Shown here in pieces: positions 4,100 to 41,467 of a stretch of DNA of 41,492 nucleotides. The position numbers were made by a program, and so were the translations under genes. Under the pieces are notes generated by a model. It searched no databases, had not been told where the DNA came from, and worked only from the letters and a program-made list of their open reading frames with translations. The stretch is from an uncultured Clostridia bacterium (GTDB lineage: Bacteria > Bacillota > Clostridia > Oscillospirales > JAAYOS01). The stretch's first letter is position 1, and the number at the start of each line of letters is the position of its first letter. The stretch is taken from positions 1 through 41,492 of the forward strand of contig CANRJS010000019.1 in the NCBI GenBank assembly GCA_947631015.1. The letters run 5' to 3'.

Positions 4100-6149
4100 A
4101 TCCTTTTCTACCCCGTTTCCTTCCGTCCGACGCGGGTTTTGTCCCGCCCGCCGGCTTCCTCTTAGGCGCGGCGGACGGCGTGCCGCTCCCGCCGCCCCGC
4201 AGCTTTATTATCCTGTCCCTGAGGATGGCCGCATACTCGAATTCGAGCATCCGGCTCGCCTCGCGCATCTGCTTTTCGAGCTGCGCGATGAGCTCGGCGC
4301 GCTCGCCCGAGGTCATGCGCATCTCGCCCTCGTCGCGCTCCTCCTCCGCGGCCTTCGCTATGTCGATAAGCTCGCGGACGTCCTTGCGTATCGTCTTCGG
4401 GACGATGCCGTGCTCCTCGTTGAACTTCATCTGTATCTCGCGGCGGCGGTTCGTCTCGGTGATGGCGCGGTGCATCGAGTCGGTGACGGTGTCCGCGTAC
4501 ATTATCACCTTGCCCTCCGCGTTCCGCGCCGCGCGGCCTATCGTCTGGATGAGCGAGGTCTCGTTTCGCAGGAAGCCCTCCTTGTCCGCGTCAAGTATCG
4601 CGACAAGCGACACCTCCGGGATGTCCAGCCCTTCGCGCAGGAGGTTTATTCCCACGAGAACGTCGAACTCGCCCGCGCGGAGGTCGCGGATTATCTCGGC
4701 GCGCTCGAGCGTCTCCACCGCGTGGTGCATGTACCGCACGCGGATGCCCACGCCGCGAAGATGGGTCGTGAGGTCCTCCGCCATTTTCTTTGTGAGCGTC
4801 GTGACAAGCACGCGCTCGTTCTTCTCCGCGCGCTCGTTTATCTCGCCTATGAGGTCGTCTATCTGCCCGTCGACCGGGCGCACCTCCACCTCCGGGTCGA
4901 CAAGTCCAGTGGGACGTATGACCTGCTCGACTATCTGCCCCGACCGCTCGCGCTCGTACTGCGAGGGCGTCGCGGAGACGTATATCACCTGATTCAGCTT
5001 CTCGCGGAACTCGTCGAAGTTCAGCGGACGGTTGTCGAGCGCGGACGGCAGGCGGAAGCCGTACTCCACGAGCGAGGTCTTCCGCGCGCGGTCGCCGTTG
5101 AACATCCCGCGCACCTGCGGGAGCGTGACGTGGCTCTCGTCCACAAAGAGCAGGAAGTCCTTGGGGAAGTAGTCGAGCAGCGTCGTCGGCGTGGAGCCGG
5201 GCGCGCGCCGCGCGAGCACGCGGGAGTAGTTCTCCACACCCGAGCAGAAGCCGAGCTCGCGGAGCATTTCGACGTCGTACTCGGTGCGCTGGCGTATCCT
5301 CTGCGCCTCGAGAAGCTTGTCCTGCGACTCGAACCACTTCACCCGCTCCTCCATCTCGTCCTCGATGTCCTTTATCGCGTCGTTCAGCTTGTCGAGCGAC
5401 GTGACGTAGTGGGAGTTTGGGTAGAACGCGACGTAGTTCACGTCCGCTATTCTCTCGCCGGTGACGAGCTTTATCTCGCTTATCCTCTCCACCTCGTCGC
5501 CGAAGAACTCGACGCGGTAGCTCTCGTCCGCAAAGCTCGGCGGCACTATCTCGACTATGTCGCCGCGCACGCGGAAGGTTCCGCGCTCCTGCGCCATGTC
5601 GTTTCGCGCGTAGTGGTTATCGACGAGGCGGCGGAGGAACACGTCTCGGTCGAGGTTCTGTCCCACGCGAACGCCGGTGACCTGCGCCGCGTACTCCTCC
5701 GGGTCGCCGAGGGTGTAGATACAGCTCACCGAGGCGACGATTATCACGTCCCGCCGCTCAAAGAGCGCGCTCGTCGCCGAGTGGCGCAGGCGCTCTATCT
5801 CGGAGTTTATCGACATGTCCTTCTCGATATACGTGTCGGTATGGGGAATATACGCCTCCGGCTGGTAGTAGTCGTAGTAGCTGACGAAGTACTCGACCGC
5901 GTTTTTCGGAAAGAACTCGCGGAACTCGCTTGCGAGCTGCGCCGCGAGGGTCTTGTTGTGCGCGAGCACAAGCGTCGGCCGTTGCACGCGCTCTATCACC
6001 TTCGCCATCGTGAAGGTCTTGCCCGAGCCGGTAACGCCGAGCAACGTCTGCTCGTCGAGACCGTTCTCGACGCCCTCCGCGAGGGCTTCTATCGCCTGCG
6101 GCTGATCCCCCGCCGGCTCGTATTTGCTCACGACCTCAAACTTTGCCAC
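4089..6149 (-). CDS. uvrB: UvrABC excinuclease subunit B
   Basis: 686-residue UvrB, the helicase-like core of nucleotide excision repair that receives damaged DNA from UvrA and recruits UvrC. It shows Walker A GVTGSGKT (38-45), the beta-hairpin region starting [12 protein letters not shown] (about 91), the DES-type Walker B in [11 protein letters not shown], helicase motif [11 protein letters not shown], and a C-terminal UVR coiled-coil domain (about 615-650) that contacts UvrC, followed by a basic tail. The start is GTG at 6149 with an AGGGGAGG-type ribosome site just upstream. It is first in the uvrBA operon. The main promoter with its SOS box is 154 nt upstream; another TATAAT-like box lies at 6188-6193. 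Confidence 0.98.
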
Positions 6150-11075: not shown

Positions 11076-11915
11076 ATGAAATACAACCGTTTTGAACGCT
11101 TCTGCGCGCGTCACGAGAGATGGGGCGTGCCGAATCTGATGCTGTTTGTCATCGCCGCAAACGTCGTGCTGTTTCTGCTGAACAGCACGGTGTACGGAGC
11201 GGCGTTCGTCTACCGGTGGCTGACGTTCATACCGTCCGAGATAGCGCGCGGACAGATCTGGCGCGTCATCACGTTCGTGCTTATCCCGAACGTGGGCGAC
11301 ATATTCTCGCTTGCTATCTCCTCGCTCTTTTACTTCTTTGTGGGCAGAGCGCTCGAAAACGAGTGGGGACGCCTCAAGTTCACTATATTCTACTTCACCG
11401 GCGTACTGCTCCAGGCGGCGTTCGCGGGCGTCATGAGTATATGGTACGGCAACAACGTTGCAAGCTACACGCTCACCGGCGCGCATTACCTCAACATGTC
11501 GCTCTTCCTCGCGTATGCCGTTCTGAACCCGGACGGCATGGTGCGCCTCTACTTGCTCATCCCGATAAAGATGAAGTGGCTCGCGCTCATAGACCTCGCG
11601 TACATCCTTGTGGGCGTCATAGCGAACCCGTTCCCCGAGAATATGTTCCCGCTCGTGGCGATACTCAACGTCGCGATATTCTTCGCGGGCAAGGCGTATC
11701 ACACGCTTAGGCGGAAGAACTTCGAGCATTCGAACAAGATGGAATTTGAGAAGAAGACGAAGGAGATAAAGAAGCGCGGCTACACTCACCGCTGCATCGT
11801 CTGCGGCAAGACCGACGTCTCGAACCCCGAGGAGGAGTTCCGCTACTGCTCACAGTGCAAGGGCTACGCCTGCTACTGCTCGGAGCATATAAATAACCAC
11901 ACGCACATAAAATAG
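11076..11915 (+). CDS. Rhomboid-like membrane protein lacking the catalytic serine, with C-terminal zinc-binding tail
   Basis: A 279-residue protein; GGAGGAAAT precedes ATG 11076. About six hydrophobic segments lie between residues 20 and 205. The ENEWGRLKFTIFYF block (about 94-107) looks like the rhomboid L1 region, but where an active rhomboid protease has GxSG this protein reads TGAHYLNMS (134-142), so the nucleophile is absent. After a charged linker, a tail carries C240-x2-C243, C258-x2-C261 and further Cys/His (C266, C268, H271, H275), a probable one- or two-zinc module facing the cytoplasm. It is best viewed as a pseudoprotease of the rhomboid/derlin-like type; its role is unknown. Confidence 0.8.
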   Translation: MKYNRFERFCARHERWGVPNLMLFVIAANVVLFLLNSTVYGAAFVYRWLTFIPSEIARGQIWRVITFVLIPNVGDIFSLAISSLFYFFVGRALENEWGRLKFTIFYFTGVLLQAAFAGVMSIWYGNNVASYTLTGAHYLNMSLFLAYAVLNPDGMVRLYLLIPIKMKWLALIDLAYILVGVIANPFPENMFPLVAILNVAIFFAGKAYHTLRRKNFEHSNKMEFEKKTKEIKKRGYTHRCIVCGKTDVSNPEEEFRYCSQCKGYACYCSEHINNHTHIK

Positions 11916-12321
11916 TTCGCGGAAAATCGCAGGAGCGGGCTTTGCCCGCTCCTTTACCAATTTTCCGCGAAGCTGTCGGATAGGGCAAAGCCCTACCGAC
12001 AGCGGCACTCCGCTACGCGCCGAGTTTTCCGCCTTCGGCGGAAAATCGACGCACGCTCCGCGAGAGGTGTTTTTTGCCACGTACACGCCGCGGCAAAAAC
12101 AGATTTAACTCTATTTCGCCGCTAAAGCGGCGAAACTCTGCGAGGCTTGGCTCACCGTCCGCGCCGGTTCGCGCGGTTGATGTTGCCGAAGGCAACATCG
12201 CGCAGCCGGAATTCATTTCCGGCGAGCATTTCAATCAAAGGGGTCCCCAAGCGGCGTGAAACGCCGCTTGGGGAAGCATTTCAATCGGAAGGGCTCCCAC
12301 GCGGTCGTCCGCCGCGTGGGA
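11916..12321. repeat. Chain of about ten perfect small hairpins in a 400-nt gene-free stretch
   Basis: No gene is supported here. Palindromes follow one another: 11916-11971 (nested; inner 11931-11953 may terminate the rhomboid-like gene), 11975-12000, 12001-12014, 12025-12045, 12071-12099, 12114-12135, 12179-12199, 12206-12222, 12245-12273 and 12295-12321. The stems all differ, but the last units share a linker, AGCATTTCAATC, at 12225-12236 and 12275-12286, exactly 50 nt apart. The final hairpins lie just past the mscS stop and may end that transcript. Confidence 0.8.
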
Positions 12322-12332
12322 ATTGCGGAGCG

Positions 12333-13160
12333 TCAGTCCTTCTTTCCGTCCTCGTGGGTGACGTAGACGTCGAGCTTGTTGTAAGGTATCTCGATGCCCG
12401 CGGCGTCGAGGCTGAGCTTTATCTTCTCGTTGAGGTCGAACTTGAGGGTGAGGTAGTCCGAGCCCTTGCACCACGGACGCGCGCCGATGATTATGGCGGA
12501 GTCGCCGTGCGCGTCGACGGTGACGGATGCTGCCGGAGCGTCCAGCACCATCGGGTTCTTCGCAAGCTCCGAGGAGATGACCCGCTTCGCCTCGGCGATG
12601 TCGGCGGTGTATGCCACCGAGAAGGTGAGGTCGAGGCGGCGGATGTCCTCGCGGGAGTAGTTGACTATCGTCTTGTTTATGAGCTGTCCGTTCGGGATGA
12701 TTATCTGGCTGTTGTCCGGGGTGAGGAAGACGGTCGAGACAATATCTATCTTCTTGACGGTGCCGGTGCGTCCGTCCACCTCCACAAAGTCTCCGGTAAG
12801 TATCGGACGGGTTATCAGCAGGAACATCCCGCCCGCTATGTTCGCGAGGCTTGACTGCATGGCAAGCCCTATCGCCACGGCACAGCTCGCGAACGCCGTT
12901 ACGATGCTCGTCGTGGGTATGCCGAGCTGGGAAAGCGCGGTTATCGCCGCGAGGACGCTTATGCCTATTCTAAGCGCCGTCGCGATAAACGCGACAAACG
13001 ACGCATCGAGATGGCTCTTTGAGAGCACCCGCGTGACTAGGCGCGACGCCGCGTATGCGAGTAGTATCCCCGCGCCGAGTATCACGAGCGCGATAAGTAT
13101 GTTTATCCCGGTCGTTGTGAGCAAGGTCTGTATCATCGGCCAAAGTTCTTGATTATCCAT
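12333..13160 (-). CDS. mscS: Small-conductance mechanosensitive channel, MscS family
   Basis: A 275-residue MscS-type channel that opens on membrane tension and releases osmolytes on hypo-osmotic shock. There are three N-terminal hydrophobic segments (about 18-40, 58-82, 85-125). The third is the pore helix, Ala/Gly-rich (AFASCAVAIGLAMQSSLANIAGG), and leads into the conserved LLITRPILTGDFVEV and the beta domain with NSQIIIPNGQLI. The alpha/beta C-terminal domain follows. Size is close to the E. coli protein (286). ATG 13160 has only a distant GGAAAGG. It is a single gene with its own promoter, convergent with the rhomboid-like gene. Confidence 0.93.
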   Translation of the reverse strand: MDNQELWPMIQTLLTTTGINILIALVILGAGILLAYAASRLVTRVLSKSHLDASFVAFIATALRIGISVLAAITALSQLGIPTTSIVTAFASCAVAIGLAMQSSLANIAGGMFLLITRPILTGDFVEVDGRTGTVKKIDIVSTVFLTPDNSQIIIPNGQLINKTIVNYSREDIRRLDLTFSVAYTADIAEAKRVISSELAKNPMVLDAPAASVTVDAHGDSAIIIGARPWCKGSDYLTLKFDLNEKIKLSLDAAGIEIPYNKLDVYVTHEDGKKD

Positions 13161-16515: not shown

Positions 16516-16546
16516 AAGCGGCGGCGCTTTGCGCCGCCGCTTTTTT
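16516..16546 (+). terminator. Terminator of the carboxylesterase operon
   Basis: 12-bp GC-rich arms 16516-16527 and 16531-16542 with a TTT loop, followed by a T-run to 16546. A textbook intrinsic terminator. Confidence 0.93.
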
Positions 16547-16574
16547 CAAATTACGGGTTGAGGTGATAAGGGGT

Positions 16575-16639
16575 CCCCGAACGGCGCGAAGCACCGTTTG
16601 GGGCAGAACGGGCGAGCGGTATTATCCGCTCGCCCTTTT
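16575..16639. repeat. Two further perfect hairpins after the carboxylesterase terminator
   Basis: Arms 16575-16584 / 16594-16603 (one G-T pair) and 16610-16619 / 16626-16635, the latter followed by TTTT. The lead-in AAGGGGTCCCC matches AAAGGGGTCCCC at 12237-12248, tying this site to the hairpin chain there. Confidence 0.7.
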
Positions 16640-37538: not shown

Positions 37539-37845
37539 TTGTTTCTTCCTCCATTATGCAGATTTTTGTGGCTTTGGATTTTTTGGTGGATACTGACAAA
37601 TCCGTCCGCATACGGGAGGGAAAATCCGTACACCTTGCCGTGTGTTTCTCGTCCTTTGCAGAAATAAAGCCGGCCCGGTGAGCCGGCAACACGCACGCAA
37701 TACTGCTACGGTCTCCGCTCCGCCCGATTATCGGACATACTCCGCAGAAGTGACCCGCCTCCTCCGATTTTCGGCGAATACCGCTGAATTATCGGTATAT
37801 GGCGGCAATCTCCCGCTTCATCGCATAGTGCGCCCCGTCAGGCGC
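37539..37845 (-). promoter_or_regulatory. Long structured leader of the S10 operon
   Basis: Minus-strand RNA of about 300 nt between the promoter and rpsJ has no ORF I can support. A GC-rich hairpin of GCCGGC arms (37682-37687 with 37669-37674) is followed by TTTATTTC, which could be an attenuator. Another stem pairs ATACCG with CGGTAT around 37776-37796. Ribosomal-protein leaders binding their own product are known before rpsJ in several phyla. Confidence 0.5.
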
Positions 37846-41058: not shown

Positions 41059-41132
41059 CGCCATCTGCGGACGAAGCCCGCAACCGCTTCACGTGTAAGG
41101 CGAAGCCTCACCACCGCTTTGCAGGCTGTGCC

Positions 41133-41218
41133 GCCCCACTCCCATCTAGCGGGGAAGCCCCGCGAGCATTTGCGGGGCGAGACCCCGCATCCCTAAGTGA
41201 GGCAGAGCCTCACCGGCA
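41133..41218. repeat. 86-bp repeat unit, copy 1
   Basis: 84 of 86 bases equal 41233-41318, at exactly 100-bp offset. The unit contains three hairpins: 41149-41163, 41171-41189 and 41197-41213. Confidence 0.88.
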
Positions 41219-41232
41219 GATGTGGGGCTTGC

Positions 41233-41318
41233 GCCCCACTCCCATCCAGCGGGGAAGCCCCGCGAGCATTCGCGGGGCGAGACCCCGCATCCCTAAGTGA
41301 GGCAGAGCCTCACCGGCA
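41233..41318. repeat. 86-bp repeat unit, copy 2
   Basis: Same three hairpins as copy 1; the two differences lie outside the core stems (41248 and 41271). A further hairpin (41222-41239) joins the two copies, and two more (41322-41342, 41349-41368) follow. Confidence 0.88.
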
Positions 41319-41376
41319 CCTTGCGGGGGCGCTGCCCCCGCACCCCCGGCGGGGCTGTGCCGCCCCGCACCCCTGC

Positions 41377-41430
41377 GCTACTTTTTGCACGCGCAAAAAG
41401 TAGCCAAAAGTAGCCAAAAGTAGCCAAAAA
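41377..41430. repeat. 12-bp hairpin followed by three 10-bp tandem repeats
   Basis: Perfect arms 41377-41388 and 41393-41404 with loop ACGC; then TAGCCAAAAG three times (41401-41430, last base changed), the first repeat overlapping the 3' arm. Confidence 0.85.
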
Positions 41431-41436
41431 GCGCGC

Positions 41437-41467
41437 TTAAGGGAGAGGGCTTCGCCCTCTCCCTTAA
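41437..41467. terminator. 14-bp palindrome, possible terminator
   Basis: Arms 41437-41450 and 41454-41467 pair perfectly around a TTC loop. AT-rich ends but no long T-run; it may end the MBOAT-DHHW transcript or belong to a gene beyond the window. Confidence 0.5.

Follow-up and report, generated by a model that had tools for sequence, protein, structure and literature searches.

Two dispersed hairpin repeats between convergent genes of an uncultured Clostridia bacterium and the cassette-like behaviour of hairpins in one of them

The window analysed in this study is a stretch of 41,492 nucleotides from an uncultured Clostridia bacterium. Its positions 11916-12321 form the exact gap between two convergent genes, a forward-strand gene ending at 11915 and a reverse-strand gene ending at 12333, which we take, by eye, to encode a rhomboid-like and an MscS-like protein, respectively. 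An earlier note on this DNA had described the gap as a mosaic chain of about ten perfect hairpins with unrelated stems, joined by reused phrases. The chain itself is real: the MFE fold of the gap comprises about ten (nine or ten) hairpins at -221.3 kcal/mol, compared with -158.0 ± 6.5 kcal/mol for dinucleotide shuffles (z = -9.8; 0/100 as good), and a count of perfect stems (minimum 7 bp, loops of 2-7 nt) gave seven. The phrases also recur, as AGCATTTCAATC is found at 12225 and 12275 (spacing 50 nt) and AAGGGGTCCCC has a second occurrence at ~16568, and further groups of hairpins do occur at 16516-16639 and at the window end. The stems are indeed unrelated to each other, but hairpin order and linkers are fixed and common to dozens of copies. 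The gap is thus not an ad hoc chain, and its reading as a set of 'unrelated' hairpins is ruled out by the occurrence of the family at dispersed loci and in isolates; it consists of two adjacent copies of dispersed, protein-free modular hairpin repeats, module A followed by module B (Table 1).

Table 1. Repeat modules, hairpins and neighbouring features in the window
Feature	Position	Strand	Remarks
Module A, complete 231-nt copy of a dispersed structured repeat	11916..12146	+	Directly abuts (0 nt) the TAG stop of the upstream gene
A hairpin P1	11916..11971	+	Arms 11916-11927 / 11960-11971, enclosing P2 (11931-11953)
A hairpin P3	11972..12003	+	Bulged A and 3-nt loop
A hairpin P5	12025..12045	+	One of about six stem alleles
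A hairpin P6	12069..12101	+	Around the conserved CGTACACGCCG loop; in covariance model R1
A hairpin P7	12114..12135	+	
A conserved 3' end AAACTCTGCGAGGC	12133..12146	+	Identical in 8/9 orthologous pairs; common to families across the order
Module B, second dispersed hairpin repeat	12155..12330 (about)	+ (as printed)	
Ordinary, probable intrinsic terminator of the upstream gene	16516..16542	+	12-bp stem, then T6
GGGGTCCCC hairpin	16568..16604	+	Candidate remnant of the B terminal unit

An alignment of 29 full copies of A (A1) revealed a pattern in which conserved linkers, the P6 loop CGTACACGCCG and the 3' end AAACTCTGCGAGGC alternate with the variable-stem hairpins P1 (often with P2), P3, P5, P6 and P7. 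The unit is 200-235 nt long and contains about five hairpins, of which P1 is the most variable and occurs once or twice per copy elsewhere. Across families, the core of A shows a possible three-way junction with conserved unpaired motifs.

The hairpins of module B lie at 12179-12199, 12205-12223, 12244-12274 and 12295-12321, and its linker (G)AGCATTTCAATC at 12224 and 12275 belongs to tandem copies of the terminal unit of B. A CRISPR-like reading of GCATTTCAATC was dropped, as this sequence is a conserved linker of the module. About 60 matches to B, a few of them by chance, were found in the stretches read of the window's genome (G000). Elsewhere, A and B occur apart, in either order or nested, and the number of B terminal units and P1 units varies between copies. 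We do not claim that B inserted into A and duplicated P5, because the two flanking P5 hairpins are different alleles. The hairpin following the terminator in Table 1 is a probable remnant of the B terminal unit; at its site, an array of several hundred nt with the order B-C-A-B is present in the closely related genome G001. The third module, C (about 110 nt, GTCGGGACGTCGGCGC...GGGCGCATT), was observed in G000 and G001 (e.g. L033, L035), where it sits within some A copies at the P6 loop, sometimes between two GTACA. We considered GTACA as a short target duplication of C in this loop and rejected it: several copies have it, but the left arm of P6 is often missing and the other junctions vary. 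The hairpin group at the window end (41132-41467) represents a separate dispersed repeat family that has further members on contigs C2 and C3; because the contig stops where the window does, the assembly probably broke at this repeat. Furthermore, an S10-Clostridia ribosomal protein leader was detected on the reverse strand at 37720-37829, above the Rfam gathering score.

Module A is found at about 61 loci in 1.05 Mb of the 1.89-Mb G000 genome, of which about 56% was read (about 42% for G001). Among five genomes of the window's genus (G000-G004), four are rich in A; at the window's locus, G003 has none. Using a covariance model of the core of A (R1), we obtained a match in 40 of 295 genomes of the order, spread over 7 families; A thus occurs in Oscillospiraceae and in related Clostridia. 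The distribution is patchy and often multi-copy, with at least 15 copies in many genomes (15 being the maximum scored per genome), and the R1 search returned no A in G003 or in the other examined genera of the window's family. The complete isolate replicon of Vescimonas fastidiosa MM35 (NZ_AP023416.1) harbours 35 A copies in 861 kb, and an exact-pattern scan gave matches in Flavonifractor, Pseudoflavonifractor, Candidatus Enterenecus, Pelethomonas, Avoscillospira and uncultured Oscillospiraceae, several isolates included. As the family is present at dispersed loci and in isolate genomes, an assembly artefact, which the earlier note had named as a way in which its observation could fail, is excluded as a general explanation. 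Within G001, the first 240 kb of contig C2 (C2:1-240000; L097-L108) were very sparse in A copies compared to contigs C1, C3 and C4. The exact-pattern scan of viral contigs gave 0 matches to A; in a phage collection, there were four partial matches, all on human-faecal scaffolds named 'Bacteriophage sp.', including L312 (MT835961.1, a record marked unverified), which could reflect phage carriage or bacterial contamination. Searches against Rfam 15 at gathering and E-value thresholds returned no relevant family for A or B, the sub-threshold match on module B being sbcD (21.9 bits vs a gathering score of 40). The literature searched contained no description of the A family, which apparently is a previously undescribed kind of bacterial repeat element.

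Copies of A are positioned with respect to genes. In G000 and G001, the gene upstream lies on the same strand for 48 of 58 copies (29/36 in G000 alone), counting orthologous copies in both genomes and relying on a simple codon-usage gene finder that is crude in MAGs. Of these 48 copies, 33 start 0-10 nt after the stop codon, a count that leaves out three copies overlapping a predicted gene end. Other copies start just past a terminator, a tRNA gene with a hairpin or a TATAAT box. With the PGAP genes of the Vescimonas replicon, 19 of 27 compared copies showed a same-strand upstream gene, the core starting 93-178 nt past its stop; the core genes tuf, era, rny and proS are among the neighbours.

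Pairing is kept while the stems vary. The RNAalifold consensus of the 29 copies contains 55 pairs, 28 of which show double changes, and over 41 stem pairs within the genus 97.5% (1143/1172) of the cells are Watson-Crick. Of the remaining cells, 9 are G-U on the given strand, 12 correspond to G-U on the opposite strand and 8 are other mismatches; wobbles therefore favour neither strand within the genus. Among 88 matches from different genera (84 distinct sequences), pairing reached 94.9% compared with 79.1% in shuffled and at most 56.5% in slid structures, and covariation reached 0.450 compared with 0.184 (shuffled) and at most 0.108 (slid); fitting of the underlying alignment to the model works in favour of the structure, yet both controls remained far lower. 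Top-strand G-U is common across genera at three core pairs (34, 36 and 38 cells). On this ground, the top strand may be the folded one; the states, however, follow lineages.

The variation itself is organised by hairpin. In the 29 copies, each hairpin has few discrete stem types, and left and right arms are strongly linked, with an NMI of 0.89-1.0 in P1, P3, P5 and P6 and of 0.56 in P7 (all p = 0.0002). Linkage for P3/P5, P5/P6 and P6/P7 is at the shuffled level (p 0.26-0.77), though they are only 17-30 columns apart; a weak link exists between P1 and P3 (p about 0.01). These copies are few and related, and the null ignores relatedness. We also compared nine orthologous A copies of G000 and G001, a small and related sample with flanks that are ~95% identical. 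Here, stem differences reach 20% or more of the positions in 26 of 45 hairpins, the others mostly show 0-2 differences, there are few intermediates, and the 3' end is identical in all but one pair. For 16 of the 26 replaced hairpins, at least one version was found exactly elsewhere in the stretches read. Linked arms, mostly independent neighbours and wholesale replacement together indicate that each hairpin behaves as a cassette.

Comparison of close relatives, which the earlier note had suggested as a test for compensatory changes and for gain or loss of single hairpin units, points in the same direction. At the window's locus, G001 has the same P1 and P3, P6 arms resembling two different alleles and an ordinary terminator after A; G004 carries one more P1-type hairpin, together with a different P5; the hairpin set of G002 differs; and in G003, of the same genus, the element is absent and there is a terminator only. 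Single units are thus gained or lost, as with the extra P1-type hairpin, and P1, P5 and P7 are swapped elsewhere. Pairing is maintained across copies, but mostly by block replacement of whole hairpins and not by base-by-base compensation. Selection for structure or a copying process that builds palindromes, the two readings offered in the earlier note, are partly supported, and cassette shuffling fits better than point compensation or palindromes arising de novo. From these sequence comparisons, we infer that dispersed copies recombine, exchanging at points in the linkers, together with a constraint by which mismatched hairpins are removed or avoided; the data do not separate these two components. 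At one further locus of G001 (C2:80435-81945, L101), orthologous to G000 C7:47217, everything in A beyond P1 has given way to about 1.4 kb of sequence with a gene whose product, by eye, begins like what we take to be a T5orf172/GIY-YIG protein.

In Vescimonas, the terminator hairpin of the host gene is often present on both sides of A (e.g. CCCCGACCCGCGAAAACGCGGGTCGGGG at 534659). A direct-repeat test between the flanks (score of at least 16) identified 9 of 31 Vescimonas copies and 5 of 57 copies from other genera (14/88), compared with 0/88 in a control that paired flanks of different copies. No such repeats were found in the 53 copies of G000 and G001. Outside the window's genus, these duplications span whole terminator hairpins of about 25-38 nt. 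At L176 (around 4850-5330), the duplicated sequence is a gene end: about 70 nt from the 3' end of the gene flank the element on both sides. The duplicated terminators and gene ends suggest insertion, and they are our best evidence for it. Within the window's genus, we found no empty site that could be matched cleanly to a filled one with a defined target duplication; most sites are common to G000 and G001, and orthologous sites lacking A mostly carry remnants or B. A close relative of Vescimonas was sought as a source of empty sites, but the best DNA match (74%) was too distant. A right-end T3+..GACA pattern together with a left TGTC/TGGC hairpin was observed in 9 of 32 Vescimonas copies, and the right-end pattern occurs in 5 of 67 copies of G000 and G001. 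This is suggestive of terminal inverted repeats in Vescimonas only, with none that are convincing in the window's genus.

We favour, with a probability of roughly 0.55, the explanation that A is a non-autonomous mobile mosaic element that inserts at gene ends and is then remodelled, hairpin cassette by hairpin cassette, by recombination between copies. Insertion would take place where transcription units end and would sometimes duplicate a whole terminator hairpin, perhaps through attack at an extruded cruciform (the terminator) followed by fill-in. Dispersed copies of A would later recombine with exchange points in their conserved linkers, and stems would stay paired because the machinery recognises the single strand (RNA or ssDNA) in its folded form. 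A more speculative proposal, which we make tentatively and regard as rather doubtful, is an undescribed class of mobile elements in which the hairpin is the unit of copying: a putative enzyme would act on extruded palindromes, insert the element at terminators or gene ends while duplicating the complete terminator hairpin, and swap single hairpins among dispersed copies, all without a RAYT or reverse transcriptase.

The orientation of A in sense beside stop codons counts against mobility, as it also fits a function in the 3'-UTR of the host. A could be a host-beneficial RNA element of this kind, protecting mRNA or binding a protein and maintained by selection, with spread and swapping as secondary gene conversion. 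The starts within 0-10 nt of stops, with the sense orientation reproduced using PGAP genes in the isolate, the conserved unpaired motifs and possible three-way-junction core across families, the frequent top-strand G-U at three core positions and the location next to tuf, era, rny and proS all agree with such a role. It is harder to reconcile with wobbles lacking a strand bias within the genus (9 vs 12), with several copies that lie past a terminator or beside tRNAs and are maybe not co-transcribed with the gene, with stem sequences that turn over faster than the flanking DNA, and with the lack of A in G003 and the other examined genera of the window's family. We consider this explanation possible, although less than probable.

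The perfect Watson-Crick stems with few wobble intermediates could also stem from mutational palindrome building, i.e. template-switch correction of quasi-palindromes without any mobility. This process predicts locus-specific stems, which are not the general pattern: stem alleles are common to non-orthologous copies and genomes. Linkers and architecture are also conserved across families, and we consider this process very improbable. A SINE-like retroelement, an RNA that is reverse-transcribed and whose cDNA insertion yields the 3' end, the orientation and the duplications, would account for the conserved 3' end with its variable 5' part, the sense orientation and the long flanking duplications of some copies. 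It is contradicted, unless the reverse transcriptase went unrecognised, by the lack of PF00078 in the five genomes of the genus (four of them A-rich), G267 and G113, and is very improbable. A known REP/BIME/REPIN system moved by a Y1 (RAYT) transposase is hardly credible either: A is palindromic and intergenic, with tens of copies per genome, often near gene ends and in mosaic arrays, but PF01797 was not detected in G000, G001, G002 and G004 (the enzyme search was limited to PF01797 and PF00078), and the 200-235 nt unit with about five hairpins and no foot tag contradicts this reading. Ordinary intrinsic terminators of two convergent genes, which the convergent gap, its hairpins and the ordinary terminator after A in G001 might bring to mind, can practically be discounted. 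Most A and B stems have no following T-run, true terminators lie beside A, and the conserved 231-nt architecture recurs at dozens of loci, including non-convergent ones.

The A family is widespread in common gut Clostridia, including Flavonifractor, Pseudoflavonifractor, Vescimonas and many uncultured genera, and lies at the 3' ends of many genes, housekeeping ones included. It provides a natural system in which pairing is kept while stems are swapped as blocks faster than the neighbouring DNA diverges, and it makes the spread and remodelling of palindromic repeats testable in cultured strains.

Compared to known systems, A behaves like REP, BOX and MITE elements, with the greatest resemblance to mosaic palindromic repeats of bacteria (BOX, BIME) and to the shuffling yeast mitochondrial GC clusters, and it lacks the defining features of REP/RAYT systems, retroelements and known Rfam families. 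With REP/BIME/REPIN sequences (PMC3116915, PMC3733652) it shares palindromic extragenic repeats in mosaic clusters near gene ends. REPs are defined by a 20-40 bp palindrome with a conserved GTAG or CGTC foot tag (PMC3733652), whereas A has no such tag in its conserved motifs CGTACACGCCG and AAACTCTGCGAGGC, is several times longer, does not conserve its stem sequence and occurs without RAYT in the four genomes named above. BOX elements of Streptococcus pneumoniae, thought to be mobile and often co-transcribed, are likewise modular, dispersed intergenic repeats with a variable number of structured units (PMC3049150). BOX modules are, however, defined by sequence, while the stems of A are free and whole hairpins are swapped between fixed linkers; A is also strongly anchored at stop codons in the sense orientation, and it has no known related IS. 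Bacterial MITEs (reviewed in PMC10969869) are short, protein-free, dispersed and highly base-paired like A. A differs by having no convincing terminal inverted repeats in the window's genus and, elsewhere, duplications that comprise whole terminator hairpins. The double-hairpin elements of mitochondria are palindromic and merge and shuffle, as GC clusters do. The closest in behaviour are the GC clusters of yeast mitochondria (PMC4478555), palindromic elements that merge and shuffle; these are mitochondrial, 42 nt long in the best-studied case and associated with short direct repeats at the target, whereas A is a bacterial, five-hairpin element anchored at gene ends.
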